Shown here piece by piece: positions 3,176 through 37,114 of a stretch of 37,114 nt of DNA. How positions within the stretch are numbered: the first letter of the stretch is position 1; every line of letters begins with the position of its first letter. Both the position numbers and the translations under genes were made by a program. The notes below the pieces were generated by a model. The model was given only the letters and a program-made list of their open reading frames with translations. It had not been told where the DNA came from and did no database searches. The stretch is from Erysipelotrichaceae bacterium (lineage in GTDB: Bacteria > Bacillota_I > Bacilli_A > RFN20 > CAG-826), in NCBI GenBank assembly GCA_012837435.1, contig DURD01000023.1:1-37114 (forward strand), read 5' to 3'.

Positions 3176-3236
3176 ATTCATTCTATGAATAATGATACTA
3201 AAAAATCAAAGTTAAATCACATATTATTGAATATGT
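3176..3236 (-). promoter_or_regulatory. Two palindromes upstream of glpA (possible operators)
   Basis: A perfect inverted repeat, ACATATT-ATTG-AATATGT, lies at 3219-3236. A second, ATTCAT-TCT-ATGAAT, lies at 3176-3190, only 15 nt before the dehydrogenase start. Both are sized like repressor or activator sites. I could not place a convincing -35/-10 pair for the minus strand, so their relation to the glp promoter is uncertain. Confidence 0.35.
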
Positions 3237-3425
3237 TACTTGACAGATTTATAAGGGGAAACGACAATTTGTCAGACTAAATGCAAGAAATATGATTCTC
3301 AAAACTGCATTTGGGAATCTTTTCCTTATGAAATATTAATAAATCTATGATAAAAAGGCGGTTCATTTCATAACAAAAACAACTTACTAAATGCAGTTTC
3401 CCCCTATAAAAAAGTTGCATTTAGT

Positions 3426-3455
3426 TTATCAGTTCGCAGTCAATTACGGTATAAT
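3426..3455 (+). promoter_or_regulatory. Candidate promoter of the papain-like gene
   Basis: A perfect TATAAT (3450-3455) lies 31 nt before the ATG at 3487. The best -35 is TTATCA (3426-3431, 18-nt spacing), a weak match. The inverted ACTAAATGCAA copy ends at 3425, directly beside this -35, so a protein bound to that repeat would be expected to influence initiation. Strength and regulation are inferred. Confidence 0.5.
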
Positions 3456-3486
3456 AAATGTAATTTATAATTGAGAAAACTAAAAA

Positions 3487-3606
3487 ATGAACATTATTTC
3501 CGTATTGAGTACCGCTTTATTGGTGCTGTCGCTACCATTGATGAGTGAAAAAATAGCACTCTACAAAAAAACAAATTTATGGATTTTCAGAATGTTGAAA
3601 AAATAG
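3487..3606 (+). CDS. Signal-peptide reading frame apparently belonging to the downstream papain-like gene (out of frame)
   Basis: The ATG at 3487 opens a 39-codon frame beginning MNIISVLSTALLVLSLPLMS, a hydrophobic stretch resembling a secretion signal core although it has no N-terminal lysine or arginine. It ends at a TAG inside the next ORF. The large downstream frame is offset by one base and overlaps from 3549 to 3606. A run of seven A (3565-3571) lies in the overlap: one extra A, or a -1 ribosomal slip there, would join this segment to the 377-residue hydrolase. Alternatives are a decayed start, an assembly error at the homopolymer, or an independent peptide. Confidence 0.4.
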   Translation: MNIISVLSTALLVLSLPLMSEKIALYKKTNLWIFRMLKK

Positions 3607-4712
3607 AATTATATAGGGAAATTATGTTCGAGTATTACATTGATTATTTGAATCAAAATGACAGAATCACAAACTATGCTTTTGAAGAGTTTGAAAAAAA
3701 TTACTACTCTAATTTTTTCTCCGAATCTATTACCAATTACATTTGTTCTATTTCACGGGGAGAAAAAAATCAATCTCAAAGCAATTCAGAATTGCATACT
3801 GGCAGCGCTGATGGCAAATTCCAATTAGGCTGTTCTAGAGAAAACCCTACTTCGGGGAGTAGGTTTCAAAACGGTGTGCCATTCTACAACACTAATTTTT
3901 ATGATAGATTACAAAAAGGTGATATCTTTTTAGAAAATGATTTATCTCACTGTTATCATGTAGGAATTGTAACTGATTTGGATTATCCAGTTACACAATT
4001 TTCATCGCAAAACACCTACATTCAAGTGATTGAGGCAATAGATAATTCAAGCGGTGTTCAATTTGGTTATTTGGATGATCAAAGAATAATAGAGAATAAA
4101 TTTGAAATATATCGATATTATCAAGGAATTACAGATTATCAATTTAATCTTATTTATGCTTTTCTTGATGAGCAAATAGGCGATGACTATAAATTACATA
4201 ATCACGTACAAACTAGTTATTACTGCAATGATTGGTACTGTGGGGAATTGGTATATGCTGCTTATTATTATGCCGGTATCAACATTGCTCCTAGTTTTAC
4301 AGATTTAAATTCTTCTTTTTTAATAGGTACCACAATCTGCAATGGCATCACAGCGGAAAGAATTCACTTAGATAAAGATTTGTTTTTGATATTGCAGATG
4401 GTTCGAAAGAATTTTTCATCGTATACAATCAGGATTATTAATTGCTCTAATTTCTATATTTCTGCCTACTATAATTCCAAAATGTGTTTTGAAAATGATG
4501 CCAAAAACTGGGTCAATCTCAATGACATTCATTGTACGGATATTTTCTCATATTCTTATGTGGAAGTAAGTATATCTATGAATTGGTTTGCTACACATGT
4601 CACAACCTCCTTTTGTTTGATAAACTTGAATAGAAAGGAGCGGCTTATCACTTATGCTAACGAACTTAGTGACACCGGTTTAACATCGTACAACAACGTT
4701 AAATTTGAATGA
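3579..4712 (+). CDS. Permuted papain-fold (YiiX/NlpC-P60-like) hydrolase, probably secreted
   Basis: A 377-residue protein. KGDIFLEN followed by HVGIV (His127), VIEAI (Glu152) and DWYCGELVYAAYYYAGI (Cys221) give the His-Glu-Cys order of circularly permuted NlpC/P60-type enzymes, which cleave amide or thioester bonds in peptidoglycan or lipids. The N-terminal 80 residues are charged with no recognised fold. The C-terminal region (about 275-377: IRIINCSNF, YNSKMCFENDAKNW, NWFATHVTTSF) looks like a separate beta-rich domain. The ATG at 3579 lacks a ribosome binding site and a signal peptide sits in the preceding frame, so the true product may need a frame change at the A7 tract. It is on the plus strand among minus-strand genes, suggesting acquisition. 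The fold call is by motif; the substrate is unknown. Confidence 0.65.
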   Translation: MDFQNVEKIELYREIMFEYYIDYLNQNDRITNYAFEEFEKNYYSNFFSESITNYICSISRGEKNQSQSNSELHTGSADGKFQLGCSRENPTSGSRFQNGVPFYNTNFYDRLQKGDIFLENDLSHCYHVGIVTDLDYPVTQFSSQNTYIQVIEAIDNSSGVQFGYLDDQRIIENKFEIYRYYQGITDYQFNLIYAFLDEQIGDDYKLHNHVQTSYYCNDWYCGELVYAAYYYAGINIAPSFTDLNSSFLIGTTICNGITAERIHLDKDLFLILQMVRKNFSSYTIRIINCSNFYISAYYNSKMCFENDAKNWVNLNDIHCTDIFSYSYVEVSISMNWFATHVTTSFCLINLNRKERLITYANELSDTGLTSYNNVKFE

Positions 4713-4746
4713 ATAAGCATGAGCGTTAAAGTTTAGAGAAGTTTTT

Positions 4747-5193
4747 ATGATTGCAAAGAGAATAGAATTGCTTAGAAAACAAAAGTTGATTTCTAAAAAG
4801 AATTTGGAAAAAAGAATAGGCGAATATTCATCGAAATCATCTGATGAAAAAGAAGACGAAGAAAAGATTGAAAAAGCCGCGGCGTTTTTTAATGTTTCAA
4901 CTAATTATCTTAAGAGTGATTTCAATTACCATGTTTTTCTAAGATTTGGCAATATATTTATTTCTGTTTTCTGTCTTATTTCGACGTTAGTTATGCTGCT
5001 GACATTTAATATCAATCAAGACGGACATCTATTTACTAACTTCTTAATTTCGGTATTTGTTTTTCTGACGATATGTCCTATTTTATTTTACTATCGTCAT
5101 TTCCGGCTTAGTCTTCTTCTTTTTATACCTCTATTTATTTCAATCTATTTGATAGGCTATTATTCGTTTATTATATTTGTCGCAACACATTAG
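4747..5193 (+). CDS. Degenerate Xre-type HTH domain fused to a three-helix membrane domain
   Basis: A 148-residue protein. Residues 1-58 (MIAKRIELLRKQKLISKKNLEKRIGEYSS...EKIEKAAAFFNVSTNYLKSD) follow the layout of Cro/CI-type helix-turn-helix regulators, whose typical ending is KLAKFFNVSTDYLLG. The expected recognition helix is replaced by a Ser/Lys/Glu-rich stretch, so DNA binding is doubtful. Three hydrophobic segments follow at about 65-88, 95-115 and 118-145. It is 34 nt downstream of the papain-like gene, with a usable ribosome binding site (AGAGAAG), so it is probably co-transcribed. It could be a membrane-tethered regulator, or an immunity-like partner of the hydrolase; both are inference. 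Confidence 0.6.
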   Translation: MIAKRIELLRKQKLISKKNLEKRIGEYSSKSSDEKEDEEKIEKAAAFFNVSTNYLKSDFNYHVFLRFGNIFISVFCLISTLVMLLTFNINQDGHLFTNFLISVFVFLTICPILFYYRHFRLSLLLFIPLFISIYLIGYYSFIIFVATH

Positions 5194-5350
5194 TTTTTAA
5201 ATTTTTTTCAAAATTTGAATAAAAAAGCCACAAATTTATGTAATTTTTCTTGTTGTTACTCATAATATGCTCTTGTCAAGTGAAATGTAGTCACCCGGGT
5301 ATGCGGACAAAATTTATACCAATATGCGGTATGCACTCGTTAGAATTCAG

Positions 5351-12822: not shown

Positions 12823-14677
12823 TTTTCTGTTCCACCATTTGATAACATTCGATGATATCGTTTTCTTTAATGTCATTAAAGTTTTCGATTGTCATACCGC
12901 ATTCAAAGCCAGATCTTACTTCTTTAACCGCATCTTTTTCTCTTTGTAATGAGGCTAATTTGCCTTCGTAAACGACAATGCCGTCTCTAATAATACGGGC
13001 GTCGCTATGGGCTTTGATGACCCCTTCGATGACCATACAACCAGCGATAGTACCAATTTTCGAAGCTTTAAATAGCTTTCTAATTTCGGCTTGACCGAGC
13101 ACTTTTTCCACCAGCGTGGGAGCGAGCATTCCTTTCATCGCCGCTTGAATTTCTTCAATTAAACTATAGATGATACGGTGGAGTCTAATTTCCACTCCAT
13201 CTTCTTCGGCTCTAGCTCTAGTGACGGCATTAGGTCTAACATTGAAGCCATAGATAATAGCGTTAGAAGCTCCGGCTAAAAGGACATCGCTTTCCGTGAT
13301 AGCGCCGCTGCTCGCACGGATGACATTAATTTTAATCTTATCCGTGGCTAATTTTTCTATCGAAGCTTTGACGGCTTCTGCGCTTCCAGTGGAATCAGCT
13401 TTGACGATAATGTTGACCGTTTGAACTTCTCCTTCTTTAGCTAAGTTGTATAAATCTTTAAGAGAAGCGGTCGCAGTTTTGCTTCTCTCGCTTGTTTCTT
13501 TGGCTAATTTGCGTTTTGAGGCAATAGATTTGGCTTCACTTTCTTCGGCAAAAGCCATGAAAGGATCGCCGGCTGAAGGAACTTCACTTAGCCCGATAAT
13601 AGAAACGGGAGTGCTAGGCGGAGCAACTTGTAAAACTTTACGGTATTCATTAACCATGCGTCTTACTTTGCCAAATGCGGTGCCCACTACTAGGAAGTCA
13701 CCTTCTTTTAAAGTTCCGTTTTGTACGAGTAAAGTGGCCTTGGCTCCTACTCTTCTATCTAATTTCGCTTCTAAAACTGTACCCATTGCATAACGGTCAG
13801 GGTTAGCTTTAAGTTCTCTCATTTCCGCTACTAAAAGGATATTTTCTAATAAACCATCGATGTTAATTTTTTTCTTGGCAGAAATTTCCACAGCGATGAC
13901 CTCTCCCCCATATTCTTCGCAAACCACATCGTGGGCTAATAAGGCATTTTTTACTTTTTCCGGATTGCTACCGAATTTGTCTATTTTGTTAATCGCTACG
14001 ATGATGGGGACATCGGCAGCTTTAGCGTGGTCGATAGCTTCGATAGTTTGGGGCATGACTCCATCATCAGCGGCCACCACTAAAACCACGATATCAGTGA
14101 CACCCGCCCCTCGAGCGCGCATCTGCGTAAAAGCTTCGTGTCCAGGGGTGTCGATAAAGGTAATTTTTTGACCATTGATTTCTTTTTGATAAGCCCCAAT
14201 TTGTTGACTAATCCCTCCAAATTCATCATCGACCAATCGCGAATTTCTAATAGCGTCAATCAGCGTCGTTTTGCCGTGATCGACGTGGCCCATGATGGTG
14301 ACTACTGGTGGGCGTGGTTTTAACTTACTTGGATCATCGTTAATTTCGACATTTTCAAAGTTTTCAGCGGCCACGATAGTTTTCTTTTGAAAATCGTAAC
14401 CGAATTCCAAACAAACTAAACCGATTAATTCATCATCGAGTACAGTGTTAATGGTAACCATTTTTCCTTGTAGGAATAAAAATTTGATGATATCGCCCGC
14501 GGGAACGTTGATAGTTTTAGCTAATTCCCCAGCACTGATAGCGCCAGTATAGACAAAAACCCCTCCGTTAACTTTTGATCGGCTACGATTAGCTTTGACC
14601 TTAGTCGAAACATTAGTCTCGCGTTTAGAAACTTCAGTCTCGCGTTTCGGGTATTTCTTTTTGTTATCTTTTTCCAT
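12815..14677 (-). CDS. infB: Translation initiation factor IF-2
   Basis: A 620-residue GTPase that delivers initiator tRNA to the 30S subunit. A short basic N-terminus is followed by an IF2_N domain (about 45-100), the G domain with GHVDHGKT (about 130-137), DTPGHEAF and NKID, then the domain II-IV region ending in IEGVIKAHSDARIIRDGIVVYEGKLASLQREKDAVKEVRSGFECG. The ATG at 14677 is chosen over an upstream GTG (14686) because AAGAAGG lies 8 nt before it. The N-terminal extension is much shorter than in Bacillus or E. coli. It lies downstream of ylxR with no ylxQ between them. Confidence 0.97.
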   Translation of the reverse strand: MEKDNKKKYPKRETEVSKRETNVSTKVKANRSRSKVNGGVFVYTGAISAGELAKTINVPAGDIIKFLFLQGKMVTINTVLDDELIGLVCLEFGYDFQKKTIVAAENFENVEINDDPSKLKPRPPVVTIMGHVDHGKTTLIDAIRNSRLVDDEFGGISQQIGAYQKEINGQKITFIDTPGHEAFTQMRARGAGVTDIVVLVVAADDGVMPQTIEAIDHAKAADVPIIVAINKIDKFGSNPEKVKNALLAHDVVCEEYGGEVIAVEISAKKKINIDGLLENILLVAEMRELKANPDRYAMGTVLEAKLDRRVGAKATLLVQNGTLKEGDFLVVGTAFGKVRRMVNEYRKVLQVAPPSTPVSIIGLSEVPSAGDPFMAFAEESEAKSIASKRKLAKETSERSKTATASLKDLYNLAKEGEVQTVNIIVKADSTGSAEAVKASIEKLATDKIKINVIRASSGAITESDVLLAGASNAIIYGFNVRPNAVTRARAEEDGVEIRLHRIIYSLIEEIQAAMKGMLAPTLVEKVLGQAEIRKLFKASKIGTIAGCMVIEGVIKAHSDARIIRDGIVVYEGKLASLQREKDAVKEVRSGFECGMTIENFNDIKENDIIECYQMVEQKNG

Positions 14678-36965: not shown

Positions 36966-37066
36966 ACTAATCAGTCGCAGTATTTTAATTGTTACTTGAC
37001 AGATTAATTGCAACAAATCTCTTTACTAATCAAATTAATCACAGTTTTGTGACTAATCTTTTTTCT

Positions 37067-37114
37067 TTATAAGCTTTCTATCTCGCTAGACGAAGAAAGA
37101 AAGCGAATGATGAT
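37067..37114 (-). CDS. Possible C-terminal end of a gene beyond the right edge
   Basis: From the right edge a minus-strand frame is open for 15 codons (ending RFLSSSSEIESL) before a TAA. Its AGC/GAG/GAA usage looks coding-like, and a small hairpin (TCACA...TGTGA, about 37043-37056) follows. Fifteen codons are too few to be sure. Confidence 0.25.
   Translation of the reverse strand: MIIRFLSSSSEIESL

Follow-up and report, generated by a model that had tools for sequence, protein, structure and literature searches.

The repeat block at positions 3250-3425 of a 37,114-nucleotide stretch of DNA from Erysipelotrichaceae bacterium (contig DURD01000023.1; hereafter the window) is very probably a copy of an IS30-like insertion sequence (IS) that has no transposase gene and is probably dead. 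The true feature is slightly longer than the block first described: the nhmmer and R1 profile matches, the site map, the alignment with two sister copies (L122 and L159) and a tip shared with other places in the own genome together place the whole element, to which no strand is assigned, at 3234-3438, about 204 bp. Its boundaries were set by comparison with other elements and are uncertain by 1-3 bp. No transposase gene lies in the block, and none of the listed open reading frames of at least 60 aa overlaps it.

The repeat block and its end profiles

Three inverted-repeat pairs, reported in an earlier note on this DNA, were confirmed at their coordinates. The pair 3276-3286/3415-3425 is complementary at 11 of 11 positions, while 3302-3312/3389-3399 is perfect over 11 bases and sits within a 16-nt pair. 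The pair 3250-3262/3396-3408 matches at 12 of 13 positions and is part of a larger 28-nt inverted repeat, the left arm of which (3248-3275, +) is 79% complementary to the right arm (3383-3410, -). The pairs had been called nested; they do interleave, but strict nesting does not hold, since 3250-3262/3396-3408 and 3276-3286/3415-3425 cross. The four reported copies of AAATGCA are present as well, three of them as ACTAAATGCA, at 3276 (+), 3386 (+) and 3416 (-), whereas the copy at 3306 (-) has AAATGCA. Across the whole window this word is not enriched (10 seen against 8.9 expected). Within the 176-bp block, however, it occurs four times, a number that none of 2000 dinucleotide shuffles of the block attained, and AAATGCA is the sole four-letter 7-mer with four occurrences in any 176-bp block of the window, blocks being taken every 44 positions. 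Shuffling the whole window 20 times produced three comparable 7-mer clusters altogether. The block and window shuffles rule out chance clustering of the repeats, and folding beats that of shuffled strands (z -3.1 as DNA, -3.35 as RNA); the claim of more symmetry than expected stands.

Since a BLAST search of 58 relatives with the block gave no match beyond the own genome, profile models were needed. An nhmmer profile built from four left ends of relatives' elements, with the window left out, finds 3248-3399 at 29.3 bits (E 1.1e-8), with a large bias correction of 20.5 bits. The next place outside the block within the 37-kb window has an E of 1.4, and the best of 500 shuffles scored 1.9 bits. 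The same profile also matches the minus strand of the block (24.9 bits, E 3e-7), and once the divergent L036 end is included, the score of the minus strand (26.7 bits) slightly exceeds that of the plus strand (25.9 bits). A second model, R1, was made with another program from the outer 117 positions of five ends, four of them the same, again excluding the window. It gave two matches that face each other, 3245-3315 (+) at 28.3 bits (E 6e-8) and 3382-3438 (-) at 22.9 bits (E 3e-6), and a weaker fit to 3381-3433 (+) at 19.1 bits. Given the internal symmetry of the block, the conserved inner block and the hairpin described below are what its orientation is based on.

R1 matches 30 of the 279 genomes of the order, the own genome included, in which it gave 11 matches at 7 separate places; the block is not a high-copy repeat. 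A lack of other copies and a lack of conservation in relatives had been named in the earlier note as grounds for abandoning its reading. Both were looked for, and we found related ends in the own genome and, in relatives, complete elements together with L122 and L159.

Complete IS30-like elements in relatives

Four complete elements (L050, L038, L080 and L146), 1627-1637 bp in length, come from three genera of the same order, L038 and L080 sharing one. Directed ACTAAAYGCA sites occur at nearly fixed positions at both of their ends. With the transposase placed on the minus strand, and at a site cut-off of 8/10 that some copies miss at some positions, these lie at 14>, 53-54>, 82-84<, an inner site or pair at 153-192, about -50> and -22<. 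The more distant L039 has a looser site map.

The order, direction and spacing of the sites in the window, and its inner conserved block, match both ends of these transposase-bearing elements. The left tip, TGTTACTTGACAGATT at 3234-3249 (+), shares all of its 16 bp with tips of a third IS30-like group, and the ACTAAAYGCA word that is due after it, at position 14 in complete elements, is absent, leaving an 11-column gap in the alignment. The second left-end site, ACTAAATGCA at 3276-3285 (+), corresponds to position 53-54, and the third, the inverted TGCATTTGGG at 3306-3315 (-), which fits at 8/10, corresponds to position 82-84. This inverted site lies inside a terminator-like hairpin (3294-3319, +) of 10 pairs with a 6-nt loop and a T tail. 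Further in, the conserved inner block of the left end, CAAAAACAACTTACTAAATGCAGTTT at 3374-3399 (+), on the transposase-3' side, contains the site at 3386-3395. The right end, on the transposase-5' side, occupies 3400-3438 (+) and carries the outermost inverted site at 3416-3425 and a terminal CAGTTCGC at 3430-3437. Counted from 3235, the window sites fall at 42>, 72<, 152> and 182< in 204 bp, which is the complete-element map minus about 11 bp, and the last site is likewise 22 bp from the end.

Of 196 genomes of the order, 42, the own genome among them, have homologues of an HTH_38 protein encoded on contigs C35 and C2 of the own genome, and six complete ones from relatives were scanned. All six match the IS30 transposase model NF033563 (NCBIfam) with E from 2e-26 to 9e-20; three lie above its cut-off of 80 bits and the other three at 71-78 bits. 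An N-terminal HTH_38 domain was found in all six at E <0.01, in five of them above the Pfam cut-off. Five of the scanned transposases belong to elements with ACTAAAYGCA-like ends; L044 is without such ends. Among 30 loci found with R1 (L113-L142), 12 have a transposase match, one of them weak, and several others are at contig ends. Inverted repeats enclose a single transposase gene, being perfect over 23 bp in L053, 82% identical over 55 bp in L050 and 86% over 28 bp in L080.

Exact direct repeats bracket the element at five of nine places, with lengths of 13 bp (L038), 14 bp (L050), 13 bp (L080), 15 bp (L039) and 16 bp (L053, where the repeat stands 4 bp beyond the inverted-repeat end). No exact bracketing repeat was found at L036, L043 or L031, the ends of L043 and L031 being guessed, or at the window. 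Thus the group shows duplications of 13-16 bp instead of the 2-bp target duplication that characterizes IS30.

In PMC9333248, E. coli IS30 is described with 26-bp inverted repeats and 2-bp duplications. The present group resembles it in having an IS30-type transposase with HTH_38 and a single gene between inverted repeats, and differs both in its longer duplications and in having about five directed sites over about 190 bp at one end. Nearest in duplication length, which is long and variable in both, is the IS30-type IS1630 of Mycoplasma fermentans. According to PMC3317919, which cites the original paper of Calcutt et al. 1999, four copies of IS1630 have duplications of 16, 23, 25 and 26 bp, and its inverted repeats are 27 bp long and heterogeneous. 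Set against the 26-bp ends and 2-bp duplications of IS30 and the 16-26-bp duplications of IS1630, the parent group has the look of a multi-site-ended variant within a familiar kind of element. We found no description of multi-site ends for the IS30 family in the literature searched, which excludes ISfinder and most subscription papers.

The ends of Mu and Tn7 are asymmetric and carry several directed transposase sites. Their transposases differ from those found here, and the present group is IS-sized with one gene. From the sequences, the ACTAAAYGCA repeats would be binding sites of the element's own HTH/DDE transposase, forming a putative array of several sites at the transposase-3' end and, at the 5' end, a palindrome of two. 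A group with multi-site ends at fixed positions and 13-16-bp duplications would allow the interdependence of end architecture and cleavage stagger at the target to be tested inside a single transposase family. The parent group, with its multi-site ends and 13-16-bp duplications, is of more interest than the relic in the window, which alone is ordinary genome debris.

Sister copies, related ends in the own genome and probable loss of the transposase gene

Both sister copies were found with R1 and share the hairpin and the inner block with the window. L122, from another genus, is about 187 bp long with CGCGAAYTGAMAAACT terminal repeats and has no transposase match in its locus. L159 comes from a third genus, and its left end runs into an apparent transposase 3' end at the end of a contig. 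As the sole query, L159 recovers the window block at E 4e-9, and L122 does so at E 1e-7. The hairpin, with its 10 pairs, 6-nt loop and T tail, is common to all three copies; the letters vary while pairing is kept, and L159 has one additional closing pair. In the window it is the region's only terminator-like site in the scan (0.1 expected), and no such hairpin was seen in four other ends folded at the same position. The interior hairpin is probably a terminator that shields the element from outside transcription.

The earlier reading is supported in part: of its four options, a MITE-like element comes close, the block being a transposase-less derivative of an IS30-like element, and the other three (a cooperative operator array, an attachment or inversion site, a structured RNA) are not supported. 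Terminal inverted repeats as in the full-length IS are present (the 28-nt arms, with 79% complementarity, and the end models). No target duplication was detected at the window copy, where no shared word of at least 6 letters adjoins both ends, and for this reason we regard it as a relic and not as a proven MITE. MITEAba12 is a bacterial MITE, described in PMC6382973 as a nonautonomous IS-derived element, and the window copy is likewise nonautonomous and IS-derived. It differs from bacterial MITEs in having no target duplication and in having lost one terminal site. As to copy number, the own assembly has one full-length copy of the block, and one transposase-less sister is present in another genus.

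A MITE family that is still mobile, in which live IS30-like elements mobilize short transposase-less ones in trans, seems unlikely to us. The short L122 sister with its terminal repeats, and the IS ends with a transposase start in the own genome, are what such a family would offer. Against it, the window copy is without one terminal site and without a target duplication, no exact duplication was seen by eye at L122, and a further model, R2, gave scores above 45 bits at only three places in 279 genomes, namely the window, L122 and L159, the last of which enters a transposase end.

Site 3386 fits the inner left site, having CAAAAACAACTTACTAAATGCAGTTT as its flank, and also fits the inner partner of the right end. 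Such a double fit is what excision of the transposase gene by a deletion between direct repeats would leave behind, and an internal deletion between repeated sites is the likeliest cause of the loss. Such a deletion, between ACTAAATGCA direct repeats in the inner left array and in the right end, would have taken out a transposase gene of about 1.4 kb and left a single shared site copy at 3386, with a predicted junction near 3386-3400. The outermost left site may have been lost while the tip was kept, or the tip may have been swapped with that of another IS30-like group. The window copy is probably dead either way; a transposase supplied by live copies could still bind it.

The own assembly comprises 1.125 Mb in 44 contigs, of which the window is contig C11. 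Related palindromes are found at C22:3598-3649, where the palindrome is solo, and at the end of C29. The C29 contig end is a left end, scoring 51.5 bits with a model made without it, and the right end recurs at the contig ends of C40 and C42, where it continues into a transposase start (ATGGGGAAAAACAAAG). These ends make it probable that several A-type copies are present in the own genome and that their bodies dropped out during assembly. Searching the own genome for transposases returned only another subgroup and no complete parent subtype with its transposase. Two ends of another type lie upstream of the HTH_38 protein at C35 and C2. Transposase fragments on C35, C2 and C22 were considered as the direct parent and rejected, as they belong to the other subgroup, whose ends are ACTAAATTCCG-like and whose 3' end is simple. 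Transposase matches on C34, C37 and C39, considered as IS copies at contig ends, were dismissed because the frame lies within the end of another IS. That other IS end, with CCCCTTTAACTTTGG motifs, is common to four contig ends (L011 1-126 and the starts of L025, L026 and L027), and an end of the CCCCTTTAACTTTGG type interrupts the C35 transposase. On C42 (L149, about 14070-14221), the terminal repeat of an element from a different subgroup encloses an A-type IS30-like element; this nested copy recalls the insertion adjoining IS30 ends that PMC9333248 describes.

The left tip TGTTACTTGACAGATT recurs identically over 16 bp at the C11 end (window 36990 on), C20, C27 and C33, and with one mismatch at C17; beyond the tip these places differ. 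Being shared with the third group, the tip makes the left boundary of the element sharp. At C17 the copy continues into a short frame whose HTH_38 match is below threshold (E 5e-5). The right edge of the window (36989-37114) enters the same third group, with the tip TGTTACTTGACAGATTAATTGCAAC, and this stretch is identical to the contig ends of C20 and C27 over the compared length. Mere decay of the left tip was ruled out, as it equals the third-group tip. The right end of the block and C22 have TGCGAACTGA tips instead, which makes an exchange of tips between groups possible.

The shared tip could also mean that the block is a hybrid of two IS30-like elements, joined by recombination or nested insertion, with a third-group left tip on an A-group array and right end. 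C42, as an instance of one IS30-like element inside the end of another, and the solo palindrome on C22 fit such an origin. Behind the tip, however, the array and right end face each other at proper spacing, the 28-nt arms are complementary and the junction falls on a repeated site, and we consider a hybrid quite improbable, even more so than a mobile family.

Gene setting and palindromes in distant genomes

Among 14 same-genus relatives that have the FAD oxidoreductase gene, pnp adjoins it within about 170 bp in six; in the other eight, no pnp was present in the fetched stretch of 1.5 kb or less. In the window the two genes are separated by about 2.1 kb (about 3200-5340), which holds the IS remnant, a papain-like gene and an HTH-like gene. 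A composite transposon with its second end near 5200-5345 was considered and dropped, as nothing was seen there by eye. The papain-like gene itself looks disrupted, with a signal-peptide-like open reading frame (3487-3606) and a mature one (3579-4712) in different frames; the homologues L106 and L100 are in one frame, with a weak Peptidase_C92 match below the cut-off.

The earlier note had placed a -35 element beside the last AAATGCA copy. There is indeed a possible outward hybrid promoter at 3426-3455 (+; TTATCA, 18 nt, TATAAT), with its -35 within the element and its -10 outside, but it is not above chance: the region has five promoter-like matches against 3.8 expected (sd 1.9). This pair adjoins the last site, and the directed sites lie 50-210 bp upstream of the papain-like gene, an arrangement that would suit an operator array bound cooperatively by the HTH-like protein (4747-5193) or by another regulator of that gene. 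We nevertheless judge an operator array highly improbable, since the identical site order flanks transposase genes in other genera. In addition, 0 of 12 homologue loci of relatives (9 places; some are partial and may miss the gene start) carry the tested site words or end models, the other three genes of the own genome that share the C-terminal region have ends of other IS30-like groups upstream, and the HTH-like protein has no Pfam match near the cut-off. The sites may well be cooperative, but for the transposase. Reading the repeat as IS debris keeps it from being mistaken for an operator or a riboswitch.

Four genes of the own genome, on C11, C2, C40 and C33, have in common at least the C-terminal region seen in the papain-like protein: the window gene (from 3487 on), C2:23047-24380 (L106, L028), C40:1564-3700 (L181) and C33:2400-3901 (L179). 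All four have an IS30-like end upstream of the presumed ATG, at 48, about 53, 141 and 81 bp, and these ends belong to different subgroups. No such upstream ends were found at the 9 homologue places in relatives, several of which are partial. Insertion preference, outward promoters or both could lie behind the link between IS30-like ends and the papain family. As a tentative extension, which we hold to be possible but doubtful, the block may represent the stripped ends of a distinct IS30-like group whose transposase assembles on an asymmetric array, with directed ACTAAAYGCA sites numbering about five at one end and two at the opposite end, nearly fixed across genera, and makes 13-16-bp staggered cuts. 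IS-sized elements would in that case have the multi-site end architecture of a transposon. In the own genome, such elements from four different subgroups would precede each detected member gene of a secreted-protein family at short distance, and the ends could be portable terminator-plus-promoter switches for surface genes. If true in other strains, the secreted-protein link makes IS-driven control of surface genes testable.

Folding z-scores near -3 and the recurrence of palindromes with the same word in other phyla, where the stretches fetched contain no IS30-like transposase, would be in keeping with a structured RNA, a REP/BIME-like repeat or an attachment or inversion site. Each of these is hardly plausible. 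IS ends account for the folding; Rfam at gathering scores returned, over the whole window, only one tRNA outside the block, and the structured RNA of the earlier note is borne out for a single terminator-like hairpin alone, 3294-3319. The low copy number in the own genome speaks against a REP/BIME repeat, and the attachment or inversion site found no support, the neighbouring open reading frames that were read not being recombinases by Pfam.

The palindrome was found in no viral contig. On plasmids, two records have distant IS30 family transposases, at 23-27% identity, and among 21 palindrome loci in genome contigs an IS30-like transposase was present in the fetched stretch for two. By record title, about half of the remaining loci are in Lentisphaerota and Kiritimatiellae. 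ACTAAAYGCA...TGCRTTTAGTTT palindromes recur in MAGs of Lentisphaerae, Victivallales and Kiritimatiellae (L062, L063, L065-L069, L072, L074, L078). Several of these lie at contig ends, and the stretches fetched for them contain no IS30-like transposase. A palindrome AAACTAAATGCAGT...ACTGCATTTAGT is present in Anaerocolumna and Herbinix MAGs (L073 1247-1288, L076 1760-1797), in stretches without an IS30-like transposase. It lies about 70-75 bp from an open reading frame that we take to be a DNA polymerase IV gene, and is perhaps an operator that converged on the same word.
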